DNA from: Roseimicrobium gellanilyticum
Lineage (GTDB): Bacteria; Verrucomicrobiota; Verrucomicrobiia; Verrucomicrobiales; Verrucomicrobiaceae
Direction of reading: 5' to 3'
DNA: 64,000 nucleotides
NCBI RefSeq assembly: GCF_003315205.1
Contig: NZ_QNRR01000002.1
Coordinates: forward strand, 970,857-1,034,856
Shown here: one piece after another, positions 4,324 to 35,553 of the stretch
How positions within the stretch are numbered: position 1 is the stretch's first letter
Layout of the letters: every line of letters starts with the position of its first letter
Position numbers and translations under genes: made by a program
Notes under the pieces: model-generated
Told to the model about the DNA's origin: nothing
Seen by the model: only the letters and a program-made list of their open reading frames with translations
Database searches by the model: none

Positions 4324-5271
4324 TTACTTCACCACCAGCACCGGACACGGTGCCTGGCGCACGACCCACTGGGCAGTGCTGCCCACATACGAGTGCCCCC
4401 AGCGCGTGTGCTCGTGCGGCCCCACGATGATCAAATCGCTATCGGCTTCTTTCGCCAACTTCACGATCACATCCCACGGCTCCCCGTTCTCCACACGCAG
4501 GTCCCAATTGCGACTCTCCGGCATTCTTTCTTCCTGGACCTTGGCCATGCGAACCAGAGCCTCATGGACACACAAGGCTTGCGTCTGGCTGTCCGCACTG
4601 CAAGGAGGCCAGGCAGGCGCAGGCTCCAGGGCATGTACCAGGGTGATGTGCGCACCTTCCCGGGCATCCAGGGCGCACGCCATATCCAGAGCGTGCTGCG
4701 CGCCAGCCCGATGATCATACCCCACAAGGATCCGGCTGAATCGAAACTCTGGCGGGCAGGGTGTAAGAGTTCCGGCCTTGTTCCTCAGGGCCTTCCCTAC
4801 AAGCACAGGACAGGGCGCCTGCTGCACCACCTGCTCAGCCACACTGCCGATGCTCATCCGAGCAAGTCCCATCCGCCCGTGGCTGGACATCACCAGCAAA
4901 TCAAAGCCCTCGTCCCGGGCCATGTCACAGATGACCTGCACCGCGGAGCCCGTCGCGATTCTCGTCTCGAGCATTTCACTGTTTTGGATGCTATATTGGG
5001 AGCGCAGCTCCTTCATCCACCGGTCCGCCTGATTGATGCGGGTGGAGAGTGGCGCATGATGGTGGGCGGCATCGTGTTCAGCATCGTTGTCCTCCGAGGG
5101 ATCCACCACATGCAGCAAGGTGACGGATGCACCGGGGCTGGCCATCACCAGGGCCACCGTGGCACTCACCGCGGCCCTGGAAAGCGGTGAAAAGTCCGTG
5201 GGCGCGAGAATCCTCCTGACTCGCGAGGCAGACTCAGCCACAGGTGCTGCGGTACTGTACGCGGTTTTCAT
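4324..5271 (-). CDS. Tandem universal stress protein
   Basis: The 315-residue protein contains two UspA domains (about residues 20-165 and 175-315). Each begins with a short beta strand ([14 protein letters not shown] and [13 protein letters not shown]) and ends with an ATP-binding-type loop ([23 protein letters not shown] and [20 protein letters not shown]). Tandem Usp proteins bind adenine nucleotides and are commonly induced by hypoxia, starvation or nitric oxide; the substrate is unknown. The ATG at 5271 ([10 protein letters not shown]) is preferred; an in-frame ATG lies six codons upstream at 5289. It is followed on the same strand by the PAS kinase and preceded by a second tandem Usp. 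Confidence 0.9.
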
Positions 5272-5358
5272 GACAGGAACATGACCCACACTGCACTACC
5301 GGGCTCTGCGGATTTTGCGATGCTGTGTGCGTTCCCGTAAGCCCGGGCGTGCTCCACA

Positions 5359-6315
5359 TCAGACGCCCGCAGGCACGCCTGCCTTTTGCCCGGCTTTCCG
5401 CGACGTTGCAGAAACCTTCGACTCCAGCTCCGCTTCCCCCAGATACACGCACAACACATTCGTGTGACCATGCGCCAGCACCCGCCTTGAGAATGAGGGA
5501 TGTTTGAGACGCTGCAGTCCATGTCTGTGATGCGAGCCCACGACAATCAGATCCGCCTTCGCCCTCTGGGCCACGGCAACAAGATCGTAGGCAGGGTTCC
5601 CCCACGACGGGAGGACGTGCACCGCCCGAGGCACGACGCCAATGGCCTCGTCGAACCGCTTTTTCACCTTTTCCTGAACGGCCGTAGTCTCCTTGTTCGC
5701 AGGCGTGGTGAAATCGGAATCTCCAACCATCCACTCACCGCTCTGGACCATTTTCGCATTCATCTGCACGAAATGCGCACACTCGAGATCGATGGGCCCC
5801 AGGAGCAGCAGCTTCTCGATCGCCCTTGGAAGTGCATCCTCTGATTCACTGACATCGGAAGCACAAAGCACCTTCAGAGCCTTTCCATTCTGCAGCCACT
5901 GCAGCAAAGGCTCTGCGTGCCTCACCACCAGTGTGGGGGTGATTACGGACTCCGCCACATGCTCCGCGACACTGCCTACCAGCAGCCTCTCTGTGATTCC
6001 CTTTCCGGTGGCGCCCATCACCACCAGCGCGGTGTCATCATCACCTTCCTCAATGAGATGGTGCCCCGCACTGCCGTGCATCACGGTGGTCTCCACCCTC
6101 TGGCCCGGCGCACAAATACGGTCCGCCTCGGCATCGAGCAAATTCTGACCGTGGGAATGGAGCGACTCGACCACGGGATACTCCGCCGGGGCAAGCCAGT
6201 CCGCGACGCAATGCACCAGCTTCAGCGGGTGTTTGAGCTTCGCCGCTACATACGACGCCACTTCCGCGGCATCTTTGGCAGGTTCAGAGAAATCGGTACC
6301 GCAGAGGACTTTCAT
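5359..6315 (-). CDS. Tandem universal stress protein
   Basis: The product is 318 residues from the ATG at 6315, chosen because the Usp fold begins at once with MKVLCGTDFSEPAKDA; the frame extends to 6477 but without family resemblance. The first domain (residues 1-150) has a full nucleotide-binding loop, MGATGKGITERLLVGSVAEHV. The second (about 155-300) ends in VGSHHRHGLQRLKHPS, which departs from the GxxG-(9x)-G consensus and may not bind ATP. It is the upstream neighbour of another tandem Usp and of a two-component cluster on the same strand. This arrangement is typical of low-oxygen regulons such as mycobacterial DosR. Confidence 0.88.
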   Translation of the reverse strand: MKVLCGTDFSEPAKDAAEVASYVAAKLKHPLKLVHCVADWLAPAEYPVVESLHSHGQNLLDAEADRICAPGQRVETTVMHGSAGHHLIEEGDDDTALVVMGATGKGITERLLVGSVAEHVAESVITPTLVVRHAEPLLQWLQNGKALKVLCASDVSESEDALPRAIEKLLLLGPIDLECAHFVQMNAKMVQSGEWMVGDSDFTTPANKETTAVQEKVKKRFDEAIGVVPRAVHVLPSWGNPAYDLVAVAQRAKADLIVVGSHHRHGLQRLKHPSFSRRVLAHGHTNVLCVYLGEAELESKVSATSRKAGQKAGVPAGV

Positions 6316-6577
6316 GGCAGGAGTGGGTTGGAGATGGAGTCTGAGGATGATTGAATGGCTGTGTGTGCCGTGGTGGACACTTCCATTCTGCCATCGGCTG
6401 GCGGAACCTCTCTGCATCCGTTGGTTTGTATTGCGCGTTTCTTGAAGCGCATCCCGCTGACGCACAGCCGGCGTCAATCAGGCAGCGCCAAGATCCCACC
6501 GGAGTATCCCAAAAGATGCCGAGTACTCCGCGTCCTTGGTGCGAGCGTGAGCTTGCCGCTCCCCTACTTTGATGAAC
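6316..6577. other. Intergenic region
   Basis: This 262-base gap separates the Rrf2-type regulator from the stress-protein operon, both on the minus strand. It presumably holds the promoter of the stress-protein/kinase cluster. No convincing gene, operator or terminator was seen. Confidence 0.35.
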
Positions 6578-6982
6578 CTACTTCACCGTCATTGCCAAAT
6601 CGCGCACGGTGTGCTCATCCAGCACGGAGTAGAAGGCGCTCTGGGCCCTGTACAAGATGGGCTTCAAGTGACACTTCGCAGAGATGGGACAGGTGTTCGT
6701 AGCGGGTGTGAAGCACTCCACGACATCGGCGGTCTCTGTCAGGCGGACGATTTCACCCAGCTTCGTATCCGGCGTGTGTGGCGCCAGCATGAGCCCGCCA
6801 CTCGCGCCACGTTCTGTCTTGAGCCAGCCCGCACGAGTCAGTGTCTTGGCGACCTTCGTGAGGTGATTGAGCGAGACACCGTAGAACTCGGCCATCTCAC
6901 GAGTGGTCGCCTTCTCTCCAGGGCGCTTCATCAGGTAGATGAGCACGCGAAGAGCATAGTCGGTGCGGTAGGTGAGCTTCAT
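6578..6982 (-). CDS. Rrf2-family transcriptional repressor, NsrR-like
   Basis: The 134-residue protein has the Rrf2 winged helix at its N-terminus (MKLTYRTDYALRVLIYL, then EMAEFYGVSLNHLTKVAKTL as recognition region and the GASGGLMLA wing). Three cysteines occur in VECF...NTCPISAKCHL, with seven and five residues between them, as expected for an Fe-S cluster. NsrR regulators lose DNA binding when the cluster reacts with nitric oxide. The gene is divergent from a truncated hemoglobin with an 81-base spacer that contains a strong palindrome, which fits NO-responsive autoregulation and hemoglobin control. An IscR-like or other Rrf2 sensor is the alternative. Confidence 0.85.
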   Translation of the reverse strand: MKLTYRTDYALRVLIYLMKRPGEKATTREMAEFYGVSLNHLTKVAKTLTRAGWLKTERGASGGLMLAPHTPDTKLGEIVRLTETADVVECFTPATNTCPISAKCHLKPILYRAQSAFYSVLDEHTVRDLAMTVK

Positions 6983-7063: not shown

Positions 7064-7537
7064 ATGAACATTGCCAATCCCCCATTCCCTGACCTGCTTG
7101 GCCGCCCCGATATCGAAAAGCTCGTGAATGCCTTCTACGAGCGCGTACAGGCTGACGAACTTCTGGGTTTCATCTTCAACGATGTCGCCAAGACGCACTG
7201 GGAATCCCACCTCCCACGCATGTACGCCTTCTGGGAAACGGTGCTCTTCCGGTCCGGTGGCTACACGGGCAATCCCGTGGCAGCCCATGCCAAGCTGGTG
7301 CCGCAGACGGAGATGGGCCGCACCCAGTTTGATCGCTGGCTGCTTCTCTTCCGCGAGACGGTGGACAGCCTCTTCACCGGCCCCAATGCGGAACACATCA
7401 AGAACTGTGCCCACGACATGGCGAACGTCTTGTACAGCCGCATCAACGGCGTCCCCGATCCACGATTCGATCCTGCCCGCCTGACTCCGGAGCAACGCGC
7501 CCGCTACGCGAAGTACCGGGCCGAACAGCCAGCTTGA
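7064..7537 (+). CDS. Group III truncated hemoglobin
   Basis: The 157-residue cytoplasmic globin shows the group III features: NAFYERVQADELLGFIF at the B helix, THWESHLPRMYAFWETVLF at the E region, then YTGNPVAAHAKL, whose His is the likely proximal heme ligand. Group III globins are linked to nitric-oxide detoxification and microaerobic respiration, for example Campylobacter Ctb. The gene is divergent from an NsrR-like regulator. The ATG follows the operator directly, there is no room for a Shine-Dalgarno site, and a TATTAT element 11 bases upstream implies a leaderless or nearly leaderless transcript. Confidence 0.92.
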   Translation: MNIANPPFPDLLGRPDIEKLVNAFYERVQADELLGFIFNDVAKTHWESHLPRMYAFWETVLFRSGGYTGNPVAAHAKLVPQTEMGRTQFDRWLLLFRETVDSLFTGPNAEHIKNCAHDMANVLYSRINGVPDPRFDPARLTPEQRARYAKYRAEQPA

Positions 7538-7557
7538 GCTTCAAGCGGCCATCCTTT

Positions 7558-7587
7558 TGCGCCCCACCCCACGGTGGGAGGGACGCA
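7558..7587 (+). terminator. Stem-loop between the two hemoglobin genes
   Basis: An imperfect GC-rich inverted repeat (TGCGCCCC...GGTGGGAGGGACGCA) lies 20 bases after the first hemoglobin gene. It lacks a downstream T run. It could be a weak terminator or an mRNA stabiliser between the two genes. Confidence 0.35.
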
Positions 7588-7639
7588 TGCACCCAGATAC
7601 AAACCAGAACACAAACACACTGCTCACACGCTACCACCC

Positions 7640-8239
7640 ATGAAAAAAACGATACTGCTCCTCAGCCTCGTCTGCAGCCTCGCCGCCTCTGCCGCGGAAC
7701 CGGGCTCAAGCAAGGAAACATCGAATGGCACCTGCCCGGTCACCGGCAAGCCCGCGGACCCTGCCATCACCTACGCGTACGAAGGCATTACTTACTCCTT
7801 CGCCGATGAAGCCTCACGCCAGAAGTTCACAAACGATCGCGCCGGGAGCCTGTACCAAAAGCTCGGCGGCAAGGCTGCCATAGATGCCGCAGTCGAGCTC
7901 TTCTATGTGAAGGTGCTTGCGGACAAGCGCGTGAATTACTTCTTCGAGGACATCAACATGAACAAGCAGAAGAGGAAGCAGAAGGAGTTCCTCTCTGCAG
8001 CACTTGGTGGCCCCATCCCCTACGTGGGCAAGGATCTCCGGAGCGCTCATGAAAGCCTCGGTGGATTGAATGACACCCACTTCGATGCCATTGCAGAGCA
8101 CCTGCAGGCGACGCTCACGGAATTGAAGGTCGATCCCCAACTGATCGGCCAGGCCATGGCCATCGTCGGCAGCACCCGGGATGCGGTGCTCAATCGCCCG
8201 GCGAAGCCCGCAGCAGCGGCGACTACTGCAGTGCCTTGA
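7640..8239 (+). CDS. Exported YHS-group I truncated hemoglobin fusion
   Basis: From the ATG at 7640 the product is 199 residues. A clear signal peptide (MKKTILLLSLVCSLAASAAE) supports this start over an upstream in-frame ATG at 7574. Residues 30-65 form a YHS-like module (GTCPVTGKPADPAITYAYEG...YSFADEASRQKF). Residues 70-185 match group I truncated hemoglobins (LYQKLGGKAAIDAAVELFY, FFEDINMNKQKRKQKEFL, and AHESLGGLNDTHFDAIAEHL with the proximal His). Group I globins bind O2 and NO. Export to the periplasm together with a metal-binding-type module is unusual for this family. It follows the group III globin on the same strand after a 102-base gap. Confidence 0.88.
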   Translation: MKKTILLLSLVCSLAASAAEPGSSKETSNGTCPVTGKPADPAITYAYEGITYSFADEASRQKFTNDRAGSLYQKLGGKAAIDAAVELFYVKVLADKRVNYFFEDINMNKQKRKQKEFLSAALGGPIPYVGKDLRSAHESLGGLNDTHFDAIAEHLQATLTELKVDPQLIGQAMAIVGSTRDAVLNRPAKPAAAATTAVP

Positions 8240-8292: not shown

Positions 8293-8394
8293 ACTCTGGG
8301 AGCATCTGCTATTGAGACCAAATAGCATTGCAAAAAATCATTCAACGCCGGGCAAATTCTCAGGTCATAGCATCCGTCTCTTTGTTGCCGTGAT

Positions 8395-8823
8395 GTGACC
8401 TGGTTCAAATCCATCCTCTGTGTCTGGGCATGCCTGCAGCTCGTGCTGCCAGGTTGCCTATGCCAGTTGCTGGAGCCGCTTGGCATTCATGTTCCGCATC
8501 ATCATCACCATCACGGACTCGTTGCACGGCAGGAAAATCCTGGTCCGTGCCAGCTGAAGGCCCCGCCGTTGCAGGGCACCGAGAGTGAGGTTCCCTGTCA
8601 CTGCGACGAGCGACCAGACCGGACCACCGACGAATCTCTCGCCAGCACCACCTCCGAGGTGCCGGGCGTGGAAGATTGCCCGTGGGAAATGCTGCCGACC
8701 TGGGAGCACCGCCCCGAGCCCTCCGCAAAGCGGATTACACGGCTGACAGGAAGAGACCCTCCCCATGATGGGATGGCCACCGCAGAAGAAGCGCGAATCG
8801 CTCGCTGCGTGCACCTGCTCTGA
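8395..8823 (+). CDS. Exported Cys/His-rich small protein of unknown function
   Basis: The 142-residue frame starts at GTG 8395 with an apparent signal sequence (TWFKSILCVWACLQLVLPGCLC). It contains a run of six His (near residues 35-40) and several Cys, including PCHCDE. The His run and paired Cys suggest metal binding in the periplasm. No domain family was recognised. It lies upstream of a YceI gene and downstream of the globins on the same strand. An ATG is absent near the start, so the exact initiation site is uncertain. Confidence 0.55.
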   Translation: MTWFKSILCVWACLQLVLPGCLCQLLEPLGIHVPHHHHHHGLVARQENPGPCQLKAPPLQGTESEVPCHCDERPDRTTDESLASTTSEVPGVEDCPWEMLPTWEHRPEPSAKRITRLTGRDPPHDGMATAEEARIARCVHLL

Positions 8824-8991
8824 ACAGAACTCCGACCACCCGTGCTGCTCTGCCATCGAGCACCATGAGCGTGGTCCACGCCCACTCCCTCCCGTGATGA
8901 ATACTCACGGTCATGGACTGCCATCACGTCGGCACGTCGTGAGGACTGCCGCGCACTTTTCTATTCAACAGCACTTCATTTCTTCATCATC
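8824..8991. other. Intergenic region
   Basis: This 168-base stretch precedes the YceI gene and probably contains the promoter of the YceI-polyketide synthase operon. No distinct element was identified. Confidence 0.3.
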
Positions 8992-9582
8992 ATGAAACTC
9001 TCCTTTGCCTTTCTTACCACGGTCGCAGTCATCGTAGGACTGCAACAACCTACCCACGCACAGAGCATCACGCAGTGGAATGGCTCTGCCTCCATCACCT
9101 TTGCAGGAACCTCTACCCTTCACGACTGGTCCGGAAGCGTGAAGGCCCAGCCATTCATCACCTCGGTCGGCATGAGCGACGCGGCGAAGCCTTCGTCCAT
9201 CAAAGCCAGGGTGGAGGTGAAAGCGGCAGAGATGGATACCAAGGAATCCAAGCGCGATGAGAACATGCGCAAGGCTTTGCGCGCTAGCGACCACCCCCTC
9301 GTCGTTGGTGACATCGATACACAGTTCTCCCATCTCACTCCGGGCATTGGCGCAACACCGCAGGTCCTTCCCTTCAATCTCGTCATCATGGGAAAGAGCC
9401 AGTCCTCGGTCGCTACGATCTCAAACTGGAAACAGAAGGGAGACAGCGCGTCCTTTGAAATGGACTTCGACGTTTCCATGAAGACGTACAGCATACGCGT
9501 GCCCTCCGTCATGCTGGTCATTCGAGTGGGCGATGTGGTGAAGGTCCATGCCAAGGTCACTCTGGAGAAAGTCAACGCCTGA
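8992..9582 (+). CDS. YceI-family periplasmic protein
   Basis: The 196-residue protein has a signal peptide (residues 1-23, ending THAQ) and a YceI lipocalin-like beta barrel. The family signature GTSTLHDWSG lies near residue 43, and MGKSQSSVATI and RVGDVVKVHAKVTLEKV form later strands. YceI proteins bind long isoprenoid or fatty molecules such as polyprenyl phosphates and ubiquinone-like lipids. The stop is only seven bases before the polyketide synthase start, so the two are almost certainly co-transcribed. A role as carrier for the lipid product is an inference from this arrangement. Confidence 0.88.
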   Translation: MKLSFAFLTTVAVIVGLQQPTHAQSITQWNGSASITFAGTSTLHDWSGSVKAQPFITSVGMSDAAKPSSIKARVEVKAAEMDTKESKRDENMRKALRASDHPLVVGDIDTQFSHLTPGIGATPQVLPFNLVIMGKSQSSVATISNWKQKGDSASFEMDFDVSMKTYSIRVPSVMLVIRVGDVVKVHAKVTLEKVNA

Positions 9583-9589
9583 ACCTCCG

Positions 9590-10759
9590 ATGAACGCCTA
9601 CATACACCACATAGCGACTCTGGCGGCTCCATTCGTCTACCGACAAGACACCATCCGCGAGCGGATGATGGGATGGACGTCCGATGAACGGCATCGCCGC
9701 CTCCTGAGCGCCCTGTACAAGCGCTCCGGCATTGAGACCCGGCACAGCGTGCTGGAGAGTTTCTTTGAGACCGGTGGCCACGGCCTCTTCCAACCGGACG
9801 GTGGCGGGCGCCCGGGAAATCCGGGCACAGCCGAGCGGAATGCACGCTATGCCAAAGCCTCCCGTGACATGGCCGAGGAAGTTGCCAGACGTGCGCTCCA
9901 TGGCAGCGGCTACCAGGCCAGTGACATCACACACGTGATCTATGTCACCTGCACTGGATTCGTGAATCCCGGACCAGAGCTGCATCTCGTCGAATCGCTC
10001 GGCATGAATCCTGGCGTGGAGCGTTACACCCTTGGGTTCATGGGCTGCTATGCGGCCTTCCCCGCGCTACGCATGGCATCGCAGTTCTGTGCAGCTTGCG
10101 AAGACGCCGTCGTGCTCGTGGTCTGTCTGGAGCTCTGCACATTGCACCTGCAGCTGGAAGACAAGCCGGACGTGATGCTGGCCAATTCACTCTTTGCTGA
10201 CGGCGCAGCAGCAGCGCTCGTGACCGCACACTCGCCAGCGAAAGAAATCCCCGCCTACAGTCTGGATGGATTCACCTCGGAGTTGGTTCCTTCGGGCGCT
10301 GCGCACATGGCATGGGACATCGGCAATCACGGCTTCGAGATCAAGCTGAGTAGCTACGTGCCGGAGATACTCGGAGCAGAGATGCAGACACTCATGACAC
10401 GGGTGCTTGGCAAACATCACTGCACACCCGCGGATATCGCAGAGTGGGCCGTGCATCCGGGTGGTCGCGCCATTCTGGACAAGGTGGAGCAGGGATTGCA
10501 ACTGCCATACACAGCCCTGGCGAGCTCGCGCCGCGTGCTGAGGAACCATGGCAACATGAGCAGCGCGACCGTGCTCTTTGTGTTGAAGGATCTCCTGGGG
10601 ACGCCGACGCAAGCAACTGGACCGACCTGCGCGATGGCCTTTGGCCCGGGTCTGACGGTGGAGGTGGCACTTCTCGAGCGTCTGGGCTGCAAACCTGTGC
10701 ATCGGGCCACCGAGAACACTGCCCTGCAAACCTTGCACGACTCCACACTGCATGGCTGA
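9590..10759 (+). CDS. Type III polyketide synthase (alkylresorcinol/alkylpyrone type)
   Basis: The 389-residue protein has the chalcone/stilbene synthase fold with an intact catalytic triad: Cys153 in GFMGCYAAFPALR, His289 in AVHPGGRAILD and Asn322 in NHGNMSSAT. Such enzymes extend an acyl-CoA with malonyl-CoA units and cyclise the chain on one active site. The start at 9590 follows the YceI stop by seven bases, and the 3' end overlaps the next gene by eight bases. The partner gene encodes a methyltransferase/hydroxylase fusion, which points to long-chain resorcinols or quinones rather than plant-like chalcones. The starter unit cannot be read from sequence. Confidence 0.93.
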   Translation: MNAYIHHIATLAAPFVYRQDTIRERMMGWTSDERHRRLLSALYKRSGIETRHSVLESFFETGGHGLFQPDGGGRPGNPGTAERNARYAKASRDMAEEVARRALHGSGYQASDITHVIYVTCTGFVNPGPELHLVESLGMNPGVERYTLGFMGCYAAFPALRMASQFCAACEDAVVLVVCLELCTLHLQLEDKPDVMLANSLFADGAAAALVTAHSPAKEIPAYSLDGFTSELVPSGAAHMAWDIGNHGFEIKLSSYVPEILGAEMQTLMTRVLGKHHCTPADIAEWAVHPGGRAILDKVEQGLQLPYTALASSRRVLRNHGNMSSATVLFVLKDLLGTPTQATGPTCAMAFGPGLTVEVALLERLGCKPVHRATENTALQTLHDSTLHG

Positions 10760-12809
10760 TACACCTTACTCGGGGACGACACCCGTCGGGCCTCCACCGA
10801 GGTGGTCCGACGCCCCTCCCTACACCAACCTGCAGCGATGGACTGCTCTGGCCTATGGCACTCTATGCCATAGTTTCTTCATCGCTGCTGTCGTGGTGAT
10901 GTTCGTGGCTCTCCATGGAGGTTTGACCGAGGGATGGAGCGCCTTGTCTGGCTGGACGGGAGTGGCAGGAAATGTCCTGCTGCTCACCCAATTCGCCGCC
11001 GGGCACAGCCTGCTGCTTGGAGATCGTGGACGCAAGTGGATGGCCCGGCTGGCGCCATTCTCTCTGGGAAGGGCGCTGTCCACCACTCTGTTCGCCACCA
11101 TCTCCTCGCTGCAGCTGCTGCTGGTGTTCCTGTGGTGGTCGCCTTCGCATGTCGTCTGGTCCGCTCCCGCGGGCTGGCTGCTCCATGTGCTGGACACCCT
11201 GTATGCAGCATCATGGCTGCTGCTCGCGAAGTCGATGTATGATGCCGGCATGGATGTCCAGATTGGCCTGCTGGGATGGCGCAGTGTGTGGCGCAATGAA
11301 CCTGCTGTGTACAAACCCTTCGCCAGGGCAGGAACCTTCCGGTATGTACGGCAGCCCATCTACCTCTCCTTCGCGCTGATCCTATGGACTGCACCGGTCT
11401 GGACTCTGGATCATCTACTGGCGGCGCTGCTCTGGACGGGATATTGCATTGCAGCGCCGGTGCTAAAGGAGAAGCGCTATGCCAGGTACTACGGAGACGC
11501 CTTCGTACGCTATCAGCAGCGCGTGCCCTACTGGCTGCCTCTCCGACGATGGCGCAAGGAGATGGCAACGGCAACCGAGATGGACACTCCTCATGATGTG
11601 ATCATCATCGGGGCCGGTCCGGTGGGGCTGCTGCTCGCAAATCTCCTTGCCGATCGAGGCCGACAGGTGCTGGTCATTGAGCAGAATCCCGACTCCCAGT
11701 GCCCATCGCAAGCCATCGGCATCACGCCACCCTCCCTGGAAATCTTTTCCCGCCTGGGACTCGCAGATGCGCTCATAGCTTCAGGGGTTCCCATCTCGCG
11801 CGTGGAAGTGAATGGCCACTATGGGCCAGTCGGCGTCTGCGATTTCACCCACCTGTCCGGCCCTTCGAAGTTTGTACTGAGTGTGCCTCAATCCCGGACG
11901 ATGGCCCTCCTGCGCGGGAATCTCGCACGCTATCCTCAGGCCAGAATCACGCATGGCGCTGAAGCGAAGCTCCTCGCGCAAGATGGCTCGGGTGTGGAAG
12001 TGGAAGTGCGCAACACGAATGGCCGCGAGTCTGTAAGAGCGAAACACGTGGTGGCCTGTGATGGGAGCCGTGGCTCCACGCGCAACCAGCTACGCATCCG
12101 CACCCATGAAGGTAAATATCCCTGCCACTTCGTAATGGCGGACTTCATGGACTCAAGCGGTCTGGGCGATGAAGCGCGACTATTCTTCACCGCAGATGGA
12201 GCCGTGGAGTCCTTCCCGCTTCCAGCAGGAATGAGAAGGTGGGTTATCCAGATGCCGGATCGACAATCTTCTACCGCTGCCGATTTGGAAACCCTGGTGC
12301 AAACTGTTCTTCACCGCACGGGCATTCCGCTTGAGATGCCTCATGGAGTCATGCCTGCAACGTTACCCTTCAGCCCTCGCTGGATGCGGTGCGAGACGTA
12401 TGTCGACGGTCGCATCTTTCTCTGCGGTGACTCAGCTCATGTGATGAGCCCGATTGGTGGTCAGGGGATGAATACTGGATTCGCGGATGCGGAGTTCCTC
12501 AGCGTTGCACTTCCGGCCATGCAAGACGACCCAGCCATGGCATCGGCGTGGTCTTCAGCCTATGATCGCATTCGCTCACGAGCCGCCAGGATTGCCACCC
12601 GCCGGGCTGCATGGGGCATGAGGCTCGGGACACTGCAGGGGAACGTGAACGCGCTACTCAGGGACACGTTCATGAAGGCAGCGTTGTTTTCTCCGTTACT
12701 GGCTCGTCCGCTTGCCTTGTGGTTCTCCATGAGCAGCATCCCCGGAGCCACGCTGAGCCGCGTGCCATCAAGGCGCATTCCACGGAGATCCCGGGCGAGA
12801 CGCTCCTAG
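10752..12809 (+). CDS. Fused membrane methyltransferase (ICMT/SrsB-like) and FAD-dependent monooxygenase (SrsC-like)
   Basis: The 685-residue protein has two parts. Residues about 25-270 form several membrane helices ending in an isoprenylcysteine-methyltransferase-type motif (RYVRQPIYLSFAL, then KEKRYARYYGDAFVRYQQRVP). Residues 277-665 form a class A flavin monooxygenase with the dinucleotide motif VIIIGAGPVGLLLAN, the DG motif VACDGSRGSTR and the FAD motif GDSAHVMSPIGGQGMNTG. Its ATG lies inside the end of the polyketide synthase gene, so translation is coupled. In Streptomyces griseus, separate SrsB and SrsC methylate and hydroxylate the alkylresorcinol made by SrsA. Here both activities appear in one chain. 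An internal ATG at 11580 could also give the monooxygenase alone. Confidence 0.88.
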   Translation: MADTPYSGTTPVGPPPRWSDAPPYTNLQRWTALAYGTLCHSFFIAAVVVMFVALHGGLTEGWSALSGWTGVAGNVLLLTQFAAGHSLLLGDRGRKWMARLAPFSLGRALSTTLFATISSLQLLLVFLWWSPSHVVWSAPAGWLLHVLDTLYAASWLLLAKSMYDAGMDVQIGLLGWRSVWRNEPAVYKPFARAGTFRYVRQPIYLSFALILWTAPVWTLDHLLAALLWTGYCIAAPVLKEKRYARYYGDAFVRYQQRVPYWLPLRRWRKEMATATEMDTPHDVIIIGAGPVGLLLANLLADRGRQVLVIEQNPDSQCPSQAIGITPPSLEIFSRLGLADALIASGVPISRVEVNGHYGPVGVCDFTHLSGPSKFVLSVPQSRTMALLRGNLARYPQARITHGAEAKLLAQDGSGVEVEVRNTNGRESVRAKHVVACDGSRGSTRNQLRIRTHEGKYPCHFVMADFMDSSGLGDEARLFFTADGAVESFPLPAGMRRWVIQMPDRQSSTAADLETLVQTVLHRTGIPLEMPHGVMPATLPFSPRWMRCETYVDGRIFLCGDSAHVMSPIGGQGMNTGFADAEFLSVALPAMQDDPAMASAWSSAYDRIRSRAARIATRRAAWGMRLGTLQGNVNALLRDTFMKAALFSPLLARPLALWFSMSSIPGATLSRVPSRRIPRRSRARRS

Positions 12810-15926: not shown

Positions 15927-16157
15927 ATGGCATTGCCAGTACCAAACGACCCTCCTCCACCCATGGAAGCGCTCGCCATCACCATCTTCTTAAGCGTGCT
16001 GCTGGCGGCGTTCTTCATGGTCCTGTTCCTTGGCAGCCGCCATCGTCGCGGTCTTGGCAATGAACAGGAGGCACTCATGCCACTCGAGGATGACCTGCCG
16101 CCCGTGCGCCCTGGTCGAGCAGCCAAGACGCACGCGGCGGACAGGCATGGCTCTTGA
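15927..16157 (+). CDS. ccoS: Small single-helix membrane protein, CcoS-like
   Basis: The 76-residue protein has one membrane helix (ALAITIFLSVLLAAFFMVLFL) followed by a charged tail with an LMPLEDD segment. Its size, topology and position 17 bases before ccoNO match CcoS, which helps insert cofactors into cbb3 oxidase. Residue-level similarity to classical CcoS is limited, so the name rests mainly on context. The ATG at 15927 abuts an AAGGAAG that is almost too close to act as ribosome-binding site; the ATG at 15963, just before the helix, is an alternative. Confidence 0.5.
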   Translation: MALPVPNDPPPPMEALAITIFLSVLLAAFFMVLFLGSRHRRGLGNEQEALMPLEDDLPPVRPGRAAKTHAADRHGS

Positions 16158-16174
16158 TCCCATCCCCTGCATCC

Positions 16175-18619
16175 ATGCATCTCAAGAACGGAAACTCCCC
16201 CGACTCCGCGCCCCCTTCATCGGTCCATCCAGGTAGTGGCAAGACCACCATAGAGTTCAACGATCGCCTGCCAAGGCAGTTCCTCCTGGCTTCCATCATC
16301 TGGGGGGCGGTGGGCATGCTGGTGGGTGTCATCATCGCCTCACAGCTCACCCATTGGCGGATGAACTTTGACACGTCGTGGCTCACCTTTGGCCGCCTGC
16401 GTCCGCTGCACACCAATGCCGTCATCTTCGCCTTCGTGGGGAATATGATGTTCGCGGGCATCTACTACTCCACGCAGCGCTTGTGCAAGGTGCGCGTGGC
16501 CTCTGACTTGCTGGGGGCGATCCACTTCTGGGGATGGCAGCTCATCATCCTCGCGGCAGCCATCACACTTCCGCTGGGCTTGAGCCGTAGCAAGGAGTAC
16601 GCAGAACTCATCTGGCCCATCAATATCGCGGTCGCCCTCGTGTGGGTCATCTTTGCCATCAACTTTTTCTGGACCCTGGCGAAGCGTAACGAACCCTCGC
16701 TCTACGTCGCCATCTGGTTCTACATCGCGACTATCGTGACAGTGGCGATGCTCTACATCGTCAACCACCTGTCGATTCCCACATCGTGGACGCACAGCTA
16801 TCCCATCTTTGGCGGGGTACAGGATGCGCTGGTGCAGTGGTGGTATGGGCACAATGCGGTCGCGTTCTTCCTGACGACTCCGATTCTTGGCATCATGTAC
16901 TACTTCCTGCCGAAGGCAGCGGAGCGCCCGGTGTATTCCTACCGGTTGTCGATTGTGCACTTCTGGTCGCTGGTGTTTCTCTACATCTGGGCAGGCCCTC
17001 ACCATCTGCTGAACACTTCCCTGCCCCACTGGCTGCAACTTCTGGGTATGACCTTCAGCCTTATGCTGTGGGCGCCATCCTGGGGCGGAATGCTCAACGG
17101 CCTCCTCACCCTGCGCGGCGCCTGGGACAAGCTGCGTACGGATCCAGTCATCAAGTTCTTCGTCGCCGGGGTCACCTTCTACGGCATGGCCACGTTTGAG
17201 GGGCCGCTGCTTTCCATCCGTGCGGTAAATGCGCTCTCCCACTACTCAGACTGGACCATCGGTCACGTCCATGCGGGTGCGCTTGGGTGGAATGGTTTCA
17301 TGGCTGCAGGCATGTTCTACTGGATGGCGCCGCGTCTGTGGGGCACGAAGCTCTTTTCGAAGCAACTCGCGAACTACCACTTCTGGATTGGGCTCATCGG
17401 CATCCTTTTCTATGTGGCCTCCATGTGGATCTCGGGAGTGAGGCAGGGCCTGATGCTGAATGCCACGCGCAATGGCGGAACGGAGCTGGTGTATTCCCAG
17501 TTCCTCGACACGCTGGACGCCATCATGCCTCTCATGATGATGCGCACCCTGGGCGGCGGTCTCTTCCTCGTGGGTCATCTGCTCATGGTGTACAACATCT
17601 GGCGCACCATTCGCTCAGGCCACGCAGTGAATGAGACACGTGAAGTCTTCGTGGCGCGCACCGCCATGCAGGACCGCATGAAGTGGAAGGAAGTCTGGTA
17701 CAACGACCCTGTGCTGCTCACCGCCGGTGGGCTGGTGCTGATGATGGGCTGGTTCTTCCTGGAGAACTACGCCAACATGGGCGCACTGCTCAGCGGCGGC
17801 ATCCTCTTCTACATCGGCGCGCAACGCTTCCGCGCGAGCGGCGGCTCCTGGACCCAGTGGTATGAGCGACTGCTGGAGAACTACATGCCCTTCACCGTGC
17901 TCACGCTCATTGCTGTGGCCATCGGTGGCATGGTGCAGATTCTCCCCACAGTCACGGTCAACCGCGCGAAGAACGTGGAGGACCGGCTGCAAAAGCTCTA
18001 CACGCCGCTCGAGCTGGCCGGACGCGACATCTACGTGAGCGAGGGGTGCTACAATTGCCACTCCCAACAGATCCGCACCATGGTGCCGGACGTGCTCCGG
18101 TACGGCTCCCCCTCGCGCCTTGGTGAGAGCATCTATGACTTCCCCTTCCAGTGGGGCAGCAAGCGCACGGGACCAGACCTCGCCCGCGTGGGCGGGAAGT
18201 ATCCCAACATCTGGCACTACAATCACATGCTCAATCCAAGGAGCATCAATGCGAACTCGAACATGCCGAACTATGCGTTCATGTTCGACGCGAAGACGGA
18301 CACAAAGGCCCTGCCCAAGAAGCTGGCCGCGATGGTACGGCTGGGTGTGCCCTATCCCGCCATGACGGCGAATGAGATTCTGGAATCAGCACGCACGCAG
18401 GCAGTGCAGATTCGTGAAGACCTGGTGAAGGCCGGCGCGACGCCGAAACTCAGCGAAGAAAGCCAGCTCGTGGCGCTCATTGCCTACCTGCAAAAGCTCG
18501 GCCAGTCGGAAGCGGTGGAGGATGTGCCCGGGGTGGTGCCGCTCGCAGAGCGTGCCTTCCCTCTTTCACCTGACCTGCCTGACCGCAACAGACAGGCCAC
18601 CTCCACCGGAGCGCAGTAA
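16175..18619 (+). CDS. ccoNO: Fused cbb3-type cytochrome c oxidase subunits I and II (CcoN-CcoO)
   Basis: From the ATG at 16175 the protein is 814 residues. Residues about 30-480 are CcoN: the heme-copper ligands lie in WWYGHNAV (near 225), AGPHHLL (near 275) and TIGHVHAGALGWNG (near 365). Residues about 510-800 are CcoO, with one further membrane anchor and the c-type heme site CYNCHS near residue 625, plus distal Met candidates in NMPNYAFM. cbb3 oxidases reduce oxygen with high affinity and pump protons. Subunits I and II are separate in proteobacteria; the fusion occurs in several other phyla. An in-frame TTG at 16154 is less likely as the start. Confidence 0.95.
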   Translation: MHLKNGNSPDSAPPSSVHPGSGKTTIEFNDRLPRQFLLASIIWGAVGMLVGVIIASQLTHWRMNFDTSWLTFGRLRPLHTNAVIFAFVGNMMFAGIYYSTQRLCKVRVASDLLGAIHFWGWQLIILAAAITLPLGLSRSKEYAELIWPINIAVALVWVIFAINFFWTLAKRNEPSLYVAIWFYIATIVTVAMLYIVNHLSIPTSWTHSYPIFGGVQDALVQWWYGHNAVAFFLTTPILGIMYYFLPKAAERPVYSYRLSIVHFWSLVFLYIWAGPHHLLNTSLPHWLQLLGMTFSLMLWAPSWGGMLNGLLTLRGAWDKLRTDPVIKFFVAGVTFYGMATFEGPLLSIRAVNALSHYSDWTIGHVHAGALGWNGFMAAGMFYWMAPRLWGTKLFSKQLANYHFWIGLIGILFYVASMWISGVRQGLMLNATRNGGTELVYSQFLDTLDAIMPLMMMRTLGGGLFLVGHLLMVYNIWRTIRSGHAVNETREVFVARTAMQDRMKWKEVWYNDPVLLTAGGLVLMMGWFFLENYANMGALLSGGILFYIGAQRFRASGGSWTQWYERLLENYMPFTVLTLIAVAIGGMVQILPTVTVNRAKNVEDRLQKLYTPLELAGRDIYVSEGCYNCHSQQIRTMVPDVLRYGSPSRLGESIYDFPFQWGSKRTGPDLARVGGKYPNIWHYNHMLNPRSINANSNMPNYAFMFDAKTDTKALPKKLAAMVRLGVPYPAMTANEILESARTQAVQIREDLVKAGATPKLSEESQLVALIAYLQKLGQSEAVEDVPGVVPLAERAFPLSPDLPDRNRQATSTGAQ

Positions 18620-18637
18620 CCAATACCAACGACGACC

Positions 18638-18916
18638 ATGTTCCGCCGCGTCATCATTGAAGACTGGCACCAATACCTGCCGCTGATTGGCTTCGTGCTC
18701 ACCCTTGCGGTGTTCCTCGTCATGCTGCTTCGGGCTCTGCTCATGCGCCGTGAGCGCTGCCAGGCACTCGCCCAGCTCCCGCTTGAGGAGCCAGAATGGG
18801 CAGCACCGGCATCGCCCGCCATGCGGCCACCTTGCAACGGCCAGTGCGCTGAATGCCGCTGTGCTCGCGACAACCTGCTCTCAGCTCCCAAACCTCCCCT
18901 CACCGACCCATCATGA
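18638..18916 (+). CDS. Small membrane subunit in the CcoQ position
   Basis: The 92-residue protein has one membrane helix (LPLIGFVLTLAVFLVMLLRALLM) followed by a soluble tail with three Cys in PPCNGQCAECRCARD. It lies between ccoNO and ccoP, where ccoQ normally sits, and its stop overlaps the ccoP ATG (ATGA). CcoQ stabilises the complex but is poorly conserved. The Cys-rich tail is not a usual CcoQ feature and might bind a metal. Confidence 0.65.
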   Translation: MFRRVIIEDWHQYLPLIGFVLTLAVFLVMLLRALLMRRERCQALAQLPLEEPEWAAPASPAMRPPCNGQCAECRCARDNLLSAPKPPLTDPS

Positions 18917-19497
18917 GTGACGAATCAAAGCCCACCAACCCCGGAGAACCGGAACTCAGGCCTCACGAGTACGATGGGATCCAGGAGTACGACCAGAAGC
19001 TCCCCAACTGGTGGCTTTTCACCTTCTACATCGCCATCCTCTGGATGATCATTCACTGGCTGGCCTACTACCAGTTCCACCTCATCCCCACGGACGAGGA
19101 GAAGATTGGCCGGGCGATCCAGAAGATTGAGAACCAGCGCGCCGAGCAGCTCAGGAACATTGATGACACACGGCTCTGGACCATGTCGCAGGACCCGGCG
19201 GTCATCTCCGCTGGTGAAGCCACTTACAAGGCCACCTGTGTAGCCTGCCATGGTCCCGACCTCATGGGCAAAAAGAGCAATCCTCTCCTCCCCGGGCTCG
19301 CTCTCGCGGACAATGCCTGGAAACACGGTCACACTCCCACGGATGTGCTGAAGATTGTGCGTCGCGGCTCACCGGACGTGACCAAGGGCATGCCACCTTG
19401 GGAGCCGCAACTCGGCACCCAGCGCGTGGTCGAGGTGGTGGCCTATATCATGAGTCATCATAAAGAAGGAGAAGCTCATACCGAGGAAGTGAACTAA
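18913..19497 (+). CDS. ccoP: cbb3-type cytochrome c oxidase subunit III with a single heme c (CcoP)
   Basis: The 194-residue protein begins with the FixP/CcoP N-terminal segment (HEYDGIQEYDQKLPNWWLFTF), then one membrane helix, a charged helix and one cytochrome c domain. The heme site is CVACH at residues 109-113 and the probable axial Met is in KGMPPWEPQL. Classical CcoP has two heme c domains and about 300 residues; here only one is present. The ATG overlaps the stop of the preceding gene by four bases, implying coupled translation. Confidence 0.93.
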   Translation: MSDESKPTNPGEPELRPHEYDGIQEYDQKLPNWWLFTFYIAILWMIIHWLAYYQFHLIPTDEEKIGRAIQKIENQRAEQLRNIDDTRLWTMSQDPAVISAGEATYKATCVACHGPDLMGKKSNPLLPGLALADNAWKHGHTPTDVLKIVRRGSPDVTKGMPPWEPQLGTQRVVEVVAYIMSHHKEGEAHTEEVN

Positions 19498-19502
19498 CCA
19501 CC

Positions 19503-20921
19503 GTGAGTCAGCGTGCCCCCAACCTGACGAGCGTCACCACCATCAATGCGGACGGCTCGCATCGCTTCCTCCATCCCTCGGATGTAAAGGGTCGCTTCAC
19601 ACTGGCGCGGCGCCTTACGGCGCTGGTGCTCATCGCCGTGTATGTGGGACTGCCCTGGATACCCGTGAAGGGATTTCCAGCGGTATTCCTGGATGTCGCG
19701 AACCGCCGTTTTCACTTCTTTGGCTTCACGCTCGTGGCGCAGGACCTGTGGCTCGGATTCTTCCTGGTCACAGGGCTCGCCTTCGGCCTCTTCTACGTGA
19801 CCTCGCTCTTTGGTCGCTTGTGGTGCGGATGGACCTGTCCCTACACGGTCTTTCTTGAACACGTCTACCGCCGCGTGGAGCGCTTCATCGATGGTGATGC
19901 CGCGGCCCGCAAGAAGCTGGATGCTGCACCCTGGTCGTTCAGAAAGGTCCTGAGACGAGTCGCGAAGCACAGCATCTACCTCGCGCTGTCCGTGGCCATT
20001 GCGCACGTGTTTCTCAGCTATTTCGTTTCCATACCCCAGCTCTATGCGTGGATGCAGGGGCCGCCTTCCCAGCACCTGCTGGCCTTTGGTGTGGTGCTCT
20101 CTCTCACGACGGGGCTGTACTTTGCCTTCGCATGGTTCCGCGAGCAGTTCTGCATCATTCTTTGCCCATATGGGAGGCTGCAATCCGCACTGACAGATGA
20201 CCACACAGTGGTGATTGGCTATGACGAGAAACGCGGTGAGCCACGTGGCAAGGTGGGTGCACCTGGCGTGGGAGATTGCATCAACTGCATGCGCTGTGTG
20301 CAGGTGTGCCCGACCGGCATCGACATTCGCAATGGTCTGCAACTGGAGTGCATCGGCTGTGCTGCGTGTGTGGATGCGTGCGATGCCATCATGGCCAAGG
20401 TGGGGCGCGCACCGGGATTGGTGCGCTACGACTCCATGCAGGGCCTTTCTGGAAAGCGTACGCGCTACCTGCGGACCCGCACGCTGGTGTACACCGTCTT
20501 CGCCCTCATGGGTCTGCTTGCTGCAGGGGCAGCATTGTATTCATTGAAACCCGTGCGAGTGCTGGCCAAGCGCATCCCAGGCCAGCCTTTCTTTGTCTCC
20601 GAAGGGACGGTGAGGAATCAGTTCACGATTCGCATCATCAACAAGCAACATGGCCCAGCCCTGTTCCGCGTGGAGTTGGACAATGCTGATGCGCCAGAGG
20701 GGATGAGTCTGCTGGGCGCGGAGTCCGCGGTGGAAGTACCCTCACTCGATGAGGTGGAGAAGACGGTGATCCTGACCATTCCGCAAAAACAATATCAAGG
20801 ATCGCAACGGGTGCGCATCAACATCCACGAAACCGGCAATGGTGTGAAACTCAGCCAGGAAGTCGAATTCCTCGGGCCCGACCTCCGCTTCAGCACCCTT
20901 CCCCCGTCATCATCGCCATGA
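19503..20921 (+). CDS. ccoG: Cytochrome c oxidase accessory protein CcoG (4Fe-4S ferredoxin-type)
   Basis: The 472-residue protein starts at a GTG five bases after ccoP. It has several membrane helices in the first 250 residues, with CGWTCPYTVFLEH in an early loop. A two-cluster ferredoxin segment follows (CINCMRCVQVCP and CIGCAACVDACD), and an Ig-like periplasmic domain (FixG_C) ends the protein. CcoG is a cupric reductase that prepares copper for the oxidase. Its place in the cluster matches the ccoGHIS order of other bacteria. Confidence 0.93.
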   Translation: MSQRAPNLTSVTTINADGSHRFLHPSDVKGRFTLARRLTALVLIAVYVGLPWIPVKGFPAVFLDVANRRFHFFGFTLVAQDLWLGFFLVTGLAFGLFYVTSLFGRLWCGWTCPYTVFLEHVYRRVERFIDGDAAARKKLDAAPWSFRKVLRRVAKHSIYLALSVAIAHVFLSYFVSIPQLYAWMQGPPSQHLLAFGVVLSLTTGLYFAFAWFREQFCIILCPYGRLQSALTDDHTVVIGYDEKRGEPRGKVGAPGVGDCINCMRCVQVCPTGIDIRNGLQLECIGCAACVDACDAIMAKVGRAPGLVRYDSMQGLSGKRTRYLRTRTLVYTVFALMGLLAAGAALYSLKPVRVLAKRIPGQPFFVSEGTVRNQFTIRIINKQHGPALFRVELDNADAPEGMSLLGAESAVEVPSLDEVEKTVILTIPQKQYQGSQRVRINIHETGNGVKLSQEVEFLGPDLRFSTLPPSSSP

Positions 20922-25892: not shown

Positions 25893-26062
25893 CCAGGACT
25901 ACGCCCGACCTGACTCCATTCGCCGAATGGCAGCATCAGAAAGCCGTAGAGGAATCCCCTATGCCTCACTTGCGCGTTTCATGACATCACGAACACGTGG
26001 GGGTACGAATTTCGCAAGATGTGATTGGGACTAGCTTGGGGTGTCATCAAACACCGCAAGCT
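25893..26062. other. Intergenic region
   Basis: The 170 bases between the NarL-type regulator and the AraC-type gene presumably contain the promoter of the latter. No operator or hairpin was identified. Confidence 0.3.
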
Positions 26063-26854
26063 ATGAACTCTACCACCCAACAAGCTCCTGCCACTCACGA
26101 ACGTCTTCTTCATAGTGACCTCTTCCAGAACTATCGTGAAGCCTTCCAGACAACCACCGGCCTGCGCCTGAGTCTGGACAGCGTGGATGCCATCCGCCGC
26201 GAGTCGAAGATTCCTTCCTTGAAGCGCCTCCATCTGCCCGTCCGTGCCGCCGAAGCGGTGGTGGCGTTCGTCACCATGCAGCCAGTCGCCATACAGAGTG
26301 AGGTCTTCCGCAGCTTCGACGACGTCGCCCGTGTGATGCTCCAGGACGATGCCACTGCCGCAGAAGTCAGAATGGCCCGTGAGATCTATGAGCAGACTCC
26401 GGCAGTCACTCCGGAACGCCTGAAGGCGCTGGAAACCCTGCTGCAAGTGCTGGCCGTGCAACTGAGCGAAGTGGCCGAGCACCTCTTCCTCGAGGCCACC
26501 GAAAGCGAACCCATCACCGTGCGCAAGGCCCGGGAGTTCATCATGAAGCACCTCACTGAGTCCATGTTCCTTGAAGATGTGGCCCGCTATGCCGGGGTGA
26601 GCGCCTTCCACTTCTGCAAGGTCTTCAAGAAATACACCGGGCACACCTTCACCAGCTTTGTGAATCACGCACGCGTGGAGCATGCGAAGAAGCTCCTCAT
26701 GAAGCCCCGCTACTGCGTGACTGAGGTGGCCTTCGATGCCGGTTTCCAGTCGCTTTCACAGTTCAACCGCAGCTTCCGCCGCGTAACCTCGAAATCACCC
26801 ACTGAATACCGTGGCGAGTTGAAGTCCAAGCACGCCATGGCTGACGCGGCCTGA
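26063..26854 (+). CDS. AraC-family regulator with PocR-type sensory domain
   Basis: From the ATG at 26063 (MNSTTQQAPATHERLLHSDL) the protein is 263 residues. Residues about 15-150 resemble the PocR ligand-binding domain (LFQNYREAFQTTTGLRLSL at its start). Residues 160-255 form a double helix-turn-helix of the AraC type (FLEDVARYAGVSAFHFCKVFKK and VTEVAFDAGFQSLSQFNRSFRR). PocR domains bind small hydrocarbon ligands or iron-sulphur or heme groups in some relatives. The effector here is unknown. It is a single gene flanked by non-coding DNA. Confidence 0.88.
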   Translation: MNSTTQQAPATHERLLHSDLFQNYREAFQTTTGLRLSLDSVDAIRRESKIPSLKRLHLPVRAAEAVVAFVTMQPVAIQSEVFRSFDDVARVMLQDDATAAEVRMAREIYEQTPAVTPERLKALETLLQVLAVQLSEVAEHLFLEATESEPITVRKAREFIMKHLTESMFLEDVARYAGVSAFHFCKVFKKYTGHTFTSFVNHARVEHAKKLLMKPRYCVTEVAFDAGFQSLSQFNRSFRRVTSKSPTEYRGELKSKHAMADAA

Positions 26855-35000: not shown

Positions 35001-35553
35001 ACTTTTTGTCCGTTTTGGGGATGACCTGAGCAAAGAAGGTAAACTTTCCTCGAGTGTCTTCGGGGCAGGGGGAATAAAACATGGTCTCCGTCGGCGAGCA
35101 CGCAGCAGGGTCACAGGCGGGATTGTAGCCGAAGCTACCTGAAGATTCACAGTAGCAAGAGGTCACCCAAGGAATGGCCACGTAAGTCCCAGTGGAGATC
35201 TGGGTGTTGCATCTCCATTCAACACTGAATTTGTAGCTTGCCGGATTGTTGCAAACAGGGAGATCTGGAGGGGAGGATGGGGCGTCGGGAGCGATTTGTA
35301 TGGGGATGACTCCCTCCGCGTCAGGTGCGACTTGCCTTTCAACGCTGATGGAAGTCTGCGTCTCGCCCAACGGAATGGTGTGGCCGCCAACTTTCAGGGT
35401 GTAGCCGTAGCCTGAAATATTGATCTTGGCGATGTCTCCACAATTCAAACACTCCGCCTTCAGCTGGCGTGCCATCGGGGGAGTCAATGCCAGAATCCCC
35501 AGCAACAATACACGGATTGACTTCAGGAGTTCGGATGAACGATTGGTGAACAT
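29098..35553 (-). CDS. Giant RHS/YD-repeat protein with a variable C-terminal tip
   Basis: The 2151-residue protein has a signal peptide (about residues 1-33) and a Cys-containing N-terminal region. Long arrays of YD repeats follow from about residue 640 (for example [36 protein letters not shown]). The RHS-associated core lies near residues 1790-1876 ([40 protein letters not shown], ending DPFGL). RHS repeats form a shell that encloses the C-terminal part, often a toxin. The final 275 residues after DPFGL differ in composition and match no family recognised here. The gene lies between an arylsulfotransferase-like gene (43 bases) and an immunity candidate (4 bases). Confidence 0.93.
   Translation of the reverse strand: [2151 protein letters not shown]

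Follow-up and report, generated by a model that had tools for sequence, protein, structure and literature searches.

The 64,000-nucleotide stretch of DNA considered here (the window; contig NZ_QNRR01000002.1, positions 970857-1034856) belongs to the 7.93-Mb genome of Roseimicrobium gellanilyticum, a member of the Verrucomicrobiota, and carries a putative three-gene operon on the + strand. A gene for a YceI-family lipocalin is followed by one for a type III polyketide synthase (PKS) and by one for a fused protein, in which a membrane methyltransferase-like N-terminal half (N-half) is joined to a class A flavin monooxygenase (FMO). Comparison with related sequences makes the identification of the operon as a phenolic-lipid pathway well supported; the genes probably direct the synthesis of a fatty phenol and its oxidation towards a membrane quinone. 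The parts of the locus, in window positions, are:

8992-9582, + strand: YceI-family lipocalin gene (PF04264, 36.9 bits), first gene of the putative operon
9590-10759, + strand: type III PKS, proposed alkylresorcinol synthase (389 aa; PF00195/PF02797)
10752-12809, + strand: fused methyltransferase-like/class A FMO protein (685 aa, one unbroken open reading frame, ORF)
10809-11537, + strand: membrane methyltransferase-like half (about residues 20-262; MddA model match)
11538-11594, + strand: interdomain linker (VPxWxP motif to GxGPxG motif; length 20-26 residues across the measured fused proteins)
11595-12761, + strand: class A FAD (flavin adenine dinucleotide) monooxygenase half (about residues 282-670; GxGxxG, DG, and GD motifs)

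Seven bases separate the YceI and PKS genes. The initial annotation had described a two-gene unit, in which the PKS gene overlaps by eight bases a single gene for a membrane methyltransferase-like part joined to a class A FAD monooxygenase. The ORF coordinates confirm the overlap, and the single gene is borne out by its one ORF and by a second fused copy in the same genome; the unit is larger than described, as it also includes the YceI gene.

The PKS contains the N- and C-terminal Chal_sti_synt domains. Its catalytic triad, Cys153, His289, and Asn322, is invariant across 15 aligned sequences, so the triad noticed earlier is indeed intact. W242 is invariant in the same 15 sequences; it aligns with a Trp in Steely1 and with a Leu in PKS18, the product of which is a pyrone. 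The presence of Trp281 in ArsB and of Gly in ArsC is reported to explain in part whether resorcinols or pyrones are formed (PMC9927152). Three points underlie the proposal that the enzyme of the window makes resorcinols: its FMO partner, W242, and the formation of alkylresorcinols by planctomycetal PKSs.

Is the fused gene a real two-domain protein? An AlphaFold model of the whole 685-aa chain has a pLDDT of 90.8 and a pTM of 0.89. The second fused copy, at locus L006, is 67% identical to that of the window. Comparison of the two copies by the NG86 method gives nonsynonymous (dN) and synonymous (dS) values of 0.174 and 1.275 for the methyltransferase half and of 0.292 and 1.817 for the FMO half, with dS near saturation in both cases; both halves are under purifying selection. 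The 20-residue linker is the least conserved stretch between the copies (dN 1.01, dS 1.77). A chance fusion or a sequencing error was considered and is ruled out by the second copy, by the finding of 17 distinct fused proteins, and by the purifying selection.

By its match to PF01494 (FAD_binding_3; fusion residues 282-618, 171.5 bits) and its motifs, the second half is identified as a class A flavin monooxygenase. The GxGxxG, DG, and GD motif columns are at least 90% conserved in alignment A2, which consists of 44 of the listed rows. The predicted fold resembles those of aromatic hydroxylases; Foldseek matches include the p-nitrophenol monooxygenase PnpA, OxyS, p-hydroxybenzoate hydroxylase (PHBH), UbiI, and UbiH.

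What kind of protein is the N-half? Its nearest curated sequence family is MddA, the methanethiol S-methyltransferase (NCBIfam NF045656), with which it aligns over its full length (residues 29-263, 88 bits, E 4.9e-25). The curated cut-off of 270 bits is not reached, and the two copies of this genome stay far below it at 91.6 and 87 bits. Pfam ICMT (PF04140) is not listed for the N-half of the window at E values up to 10, a range in which HMMER filters drop most matches above 0.1, and the relative at L042 scores 13.4 bits against that model, under its gathering score of 24. There is a weak match to DUF1295, and relatives of the N-half match PEMT at E 1e-4 and 5e-5, slightly below the PEMT cut-off. 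Neither sequence comparison with PDB chains nor Foldseek with the N-half alone (E <=0.001) gave a match for it. Structural comparison gave Z scores of 10.6, 10.2, and 9.3 to ICMT and of 11.4 to sterol reductase, near-tied values that helical folds can reach without kinship; steroid 5-alpha-reductases are also among the best structural matches. The term ICMT-like, used in the initial annotation, therefore holds at best for the fold and not for the sequence, to which MddA is nearest.

The residues R200, P202, E240, Y254, and P259 are common to the PKS-linked proteins and five verrucomicrobial MddA proteins in the alignment. By contrast, K239 takes the place of E in all 21 PKS-linked proteins, Q201 takes the place of H in 17 of 17 fused and one of four split proteins, and the N-half has Q and G where MddA has H170 and D172. 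R-H-P is kept in three of the four split relatives. Because K239 and Q201 depart from MddA while other residues are kept, the PKS-linked N-halves are, on sequence grounds, a subfamily distinct from MddA. The E-E and R-H-P residues are presumably those that bind S-adenosylmethionine (SAM), as in related enzymes. The N-half thus appears to be a divergent MddA relative with an ICMT/sterol-reductase-like fold, and methylation is its likely activity.

How widespread is the fusion, and is it linked to the PKS? A contig scan with the single fusion protein as query gave no match, and a PKS alignment was therefore used as query. The phylum set comprised 387 Verrucomicrobiota genomes, 28 of them with a match at E 1e-60; in named genomes, 581 relatives were confirmed by the PKS scan, and the best 80 loci by PKS score were kept. 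Eleven fused proteins were found in 10 genomes of the phylum set, two of them in the window's own genome, and seven of the best 80 of 581 named loci have the fusion, one repeating a locus already counted. The survey that had been proposed at the outset thus yields 17 distinct fused proteins in Verrucomicrobiota, 16 of which are within a PKS cluster. The remaining one (L041, genome G050) lies at a contig end, and a close PKS is found near the end of another G050 contig. Locus L144 was dropped from the trees and from the count of distinct fusions, as it is on the same contig as L047; L056 and L094 also appear to be the same contig.

When the 387 genomes were searched with only the MddA model, and so without regard to the PKS, 19 matches were obtained at E 1e-15. 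The five above the cut-off are separate MddA proteins. The 14 below it consist of 11 fused and three split proteins; PKS clusters contain 13 of them, the exception being the G050 protein. At four loci (L050, L061, L063, and L132) the two halves are encoded as separate genes in a PKS cluster, which contradicts the possibility raised initially that they belong to unrelated pathways. Other combinations are also seen: PKS and FMO are fused in one frame at L052:1684-4017, and the FMO is joined to a class I methyltransferase at L060:6320-8278 and L137:3157-5160. The same partners are joined in three ways and are therefore likely to act in one pathway.

The FMO tree (76 rows kept; rows of <=240 bits or <300 aa dropped) places Verrucomicrobiaceae and Prosthecobacter as the nearest named relatives and requires nine changes of fusion state, at least five by starred branches. 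The PKS tree (61 chosen rows, score >400) requires seven such changes, at least four by starred branches. In the methyltransferase tree, a single clade of fused proteins is not rejected (p-AU 0.245). This pattern would fit one fusion followed by repeated loss of the N-half, or transfer.

The YceI protein of the window has, as read by eye, a Sec-type signal peptide, and YceI lipocalins have been found with bound ubiquinone-8 (PMC9113575). Of the 29 phylum-set PKS loci, 17 have a YceI match at most 5 kb from the PKS; of the 80 named loci, 37 do. Within the same distance, the 80 named loci include FMO (54, weak matches counted), MT2-type (27), UbiE-type (24), MMPL (12), and N-half (8) matches; the presence of FMO in the 29 phylum-set loci is a result of selection. 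In other families, sister clusters additionally carry genes for a UbiE/COQ5-type methyltransferase, for a second methyltransferase of class I, for an MMPL transporter, and for a two-component system. In one verrucomicrobial family, an MMPL-family transporter is encoded between the PKS and the fused protein (L042:8967-11063 and similar loci). In several of these clusters, a protein without a Pfam match is conserved beside the methyltransferase half (L061:7738-8238, L047:6384-6995, and L050:5829-7190), and two of these three have a signal-like start by eye.

Which known systems resemble the operon? SrsA, SrsB, and SrsC of Streptomyces griseus are three separate proteins, whereas the window has two of the activities on one chain. 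The Srs operon likewise combines a type III PKS, a methyltransferase, and a hydroxylase, and leads to alkylresorcinol-derived benzoquinones (operon in PMC9927152); the window, too, has an intact-triad PKS and an adjacent PF01494 FAD hydroxylase. PkqA-PkqC of Mycobacterium smegmatis and Streptomyces sp. MNU77 have the same three activities by annotation (PMC9927152). Unlike the fusion, these actinobacterial activities are encoded by separate genes, and their product is reported as a respiratory quinone in hypoxia; the window operon lies near a cbb3 oxidase. According to PMC9927152, mycobacteria were the only source from which polyketide quinones had been obtained before the Streptomyces report.

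Alkylresorcinol PKSs with methyltransferase and FAD oxidoreductase genes are also found in planctomycetal operons and in cyanobacterial hidABC (PMC10896814, PMC8086630), and on expression the planctomycetal PKSs gave pentadecyl- and heptadecylresorcinols (PMC10896814). The 'Saltatorellus ferox' operon also has a gene for a lipid/isoprenoid-binding protein (PMC10896814, PMC8086630). Gene order in these systems is mostly methyltransferase-oxidoreductase-PKS, in contrast to YceI-PKS-fused protein in the window. The word "fusion" is absent from the available text of PMC10896814, as are "fusion" and "fused" from that of PMC8086630. A plasmid cluster of the laboratory organism Deinococcus radiodurans (NZ_OV024759.1:230110-233069, locus L168) has adjacent genes for a PKS (44% identical to that of the window), a class I methyltransferase, and an NAD(P)/FAD oxidoreductase (35% identical to the FMO); it differs from the window in being unfused, in its class of methyltransferase, and in having no YceI annotated in the 13 kb viewed. 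Besides the Srs and Bps systems named initially, the planctomycetal and cyanobacterial operons and the actinobacterial polyketide-quinone operons are among the closest in the literature.

Sets of PKS, methyltransferase, and oxygenase are thus already known from Streptomyces, mycobacteria, cyanobacteria, and planctomycetes. Open-licence PubMed Central returned no paper on a type III polyketide synthase together with YceI and, in the titles and abstract openings listed, no report of a methyltransferase-FMO fusion. Within the literature searched, four features are new: the one-chain methyltransferase-FMO architecture, the distribution of this architecture across Verrucomicrobiota, the common association with YceI, and the other types of fusion.

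How might the three proteins work together? Starting from a long acyl group, the PKS would add malonyl units and cyclise the chain to an alkylresorcinol, a lipid expected to remain in the cytoplasmic membrane. The membrane half of the fusion would methylate the ring and the flavin half, to judge from its family, would hydroxylate it, giving a methylated alkyl-hydroquinone that could oxidise to the quinone. By holding two steps together at the membrane surface, the fusion may limit the loss of an oxidation-prone intermediate. The exported YceI lipocalin may bind or carry the product in the periplasm, as the binding of ubiquinone-8 by other YceI proteins suggests. We consider it rather probable that the three genes form an operon whose product is a phenolic lipid or quinone of the membrane. 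The earlier proposal of a PKS phenolic-lipid pathway with its tailoring steps on one membrane protein is supported in that the fusion is conserved and linked to the PKS; methylation, with the presumed SAM motif altered, stays a prediction.

Several observations weigh against this scheme. When one planctomycetal methyltransferase and its FAD oxidoreductase were expressed alongside the PKS, nothing beyond a single methylation, probably on carbon, resulted; the available text reports no hydroxylation, and its authors leave the role of the oxidoreductase open (PMC10896814). As far as the enzymes are alike, this result counts against the hydroxylation step. W242 was equated with Trp281 of ArsB from their positions only, not from an alignment with ArsB. 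For the N-half, the score is one third of the MddA cut-off, Q replaces H in R-H-P and K replaces E in the E-E pair relative to the five verrucomicrobial MddA proteins, and the fold group includes NADPH reductases, with sterol reductase tied with ICMT as top structural match. Many PKS clusters, the third one of this genome among them, also lack the N-half, which is therefore not essential to the core of the pathway. No FMO match was found within 5 kb in 26 of the 80 named PKS loci, some of which lie on cut contigs.

The features around the operon bear on the role of its product:

4324-6477, - strand: universal stress proteins (Usp)
6578-6982, - strand: Rrf2 regulator
7064-8239, + strand: two bacterial globins
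16154-20921, + strand: cbb3 oxidase genes, outside the operon (CcoN-CcoO in one ORF, CcoP, CcoG)

The cbb3 oxidase operon begins 3.3 kb after that of the fused gene. CcoN and CcoO are combined in one 821-aa ORF (16154-18619; COX1 and FixO domains), and the genome has three COX1 matches, that of the window among them. Over 4.5 kb, the DNA of the two fused-copy segments is 71% identical, the duplicated block at window 8296-12766 (YceI-PKS-fusion) having its counterpart at L006. Window 26031-26811 is 77% identical in DNA to the AraC-type regulator gene directly downstream of the L006 copy. A small ORF with a His run and a signal-like start (8395-8823) has a similar ORF at L006 5569-6063, and so lies upstream of both fused operons.

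Could the fused gene yield two proteins, or could its N-half be something other than a methyltransferase? Production of the halves as separate proteins via an internal start would be in line with the AAGGAG and the two ATG codons of the window linker. However, of 16 distinct linkers parsed (that of L121 was left unparsed), seven contain Met and nine, including that of the other genome copy, do not (GTG and TTG starts not checked), and the reading frame is open throughout in all 17 distinct fused proteins; separate production is thus very improbable. Alternatively, the N-half may act as an anchor in the membrane or as a sterol-reductase-type enzyme, in which case the fused protein would be a membrane-tethered hydroxylase. 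The H-to-Q and E-to-K changes, the structural matches to sterol reductase and steroid 5-alpha-reductases, and the weak DUF1295 match agree with this idea. On the other hand, the top sequence model is a methyltransferase, R200, P202, E240, and Y254 are kept, relatives come close to the PEMT cut-off, R-H-P is intact in most split relatives, and the N-half is under purifying selection, so that we consider the absence of methyltransferase activity unlikely.

There are also different possibilities for the product. Similar type III PKSs can give alkylresorcinols or alkylpyrones, and the two-gene Bacillus version (BpsA/BpsB) includes a methyltransferase; the window PKS might therefore make alkylpyrones that the methyltransferase half O-methylates. 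In such a pathway the FMO, with its aromatic-hydroxylase fold, would be idle, and the invariant W242 also argues against it, making alkylpyrones improbable. If the product is a hydroquinone, it could serve as a membrane antioxidant, quenching lipid peroxyl radicals on the YceI lipocalin and taking no part in respiration. YceI heads the operon, stress-protein genes are close by, and a YceI lipocalin system with ubiquinone-8 as likely ligand is reported to counter membrane peroxyl radicals (PMC9113575). The partner in that system is, however, cytochrome b561 (PMC9113575), for which no search was made here, and 12 of the 29 and 43 of the 80 loci, some on cut contigs, lack a YceI match at up to 5 kb from the PKS; a purely antioxidant role is, in our estimate, distinctly unlikely. 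The neighbourhood itself suggests, by analogy, a lipid quinone used at low oxygen, like the polyketide quinones of the actinobacterial PKS-methyltransferase-oxidoreductase operons, which are held to act in hypoxia (PMC9927152). Such a quinone might be an alternative electron carrier that feeds the neighbouring high-affinity oxidase branch, as is reported for Mycobacterium and Streptomyces. This is consistent with the position of the operon before the cbb3 genes and beside those for globins, Rrf2, and Usp, and with the fact that 7 of the 12 Usp ORFs of the genome are no more than 12 kb from the two fused copies. A menA match above cut-off is also present in the genome, so that a switch between quinones is possible; the futalosine menaquinone route gave no match. 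Yet the two Usp-flanked copies count as one observation because of the block duplication, and no Usp ORF is present on the contig of the third PKS copy. Proteins like the cbb3, globin, Rrf2, and PNPOx proteins of the window were absent from the available flanks of the other loci (phmmer E 1e-10), and a conserved low-oxygen neighbourhood was sought in relatives and not found. FNR-type boxes are at chance level (22 against 20.7 expected in the window, 4 against 5.0 at the second locus). A role as low-oxygen carrier is therefore possible but doubtful.

The most far-reaching proposal is that Verrucomicrobiota make a polyketide quinone, with one membrane protein that methylates and hydroxylates an alkylresorcinol and a YceI protein that carries it, and that in this genome the quinone serves the cbb3 oxidase at low oxygen. 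We regard this as speculative and on the unlikely side. If true, polyketide quinones would no longer be confined to Gram-positive actinobacteria but would also occur in a Gram-negative phylum. To our knowledge, few pathways to respiratory quinones are known, and a fused form, conserved in another phylum and accompanied by a lipid-binding protein, would be a compact and testable route. Type III PKS clusters, usually assigned to secondary metabolism, would also be connected with possible redox functions in the membrane, and there would be a new two-domain membrane enzyme with halves that can be tested separately.

Elsewhere in the window, two very long ORFs are found on the - strand, at 29098-35553 and 37032-44786 (2151 and 2584 aa).

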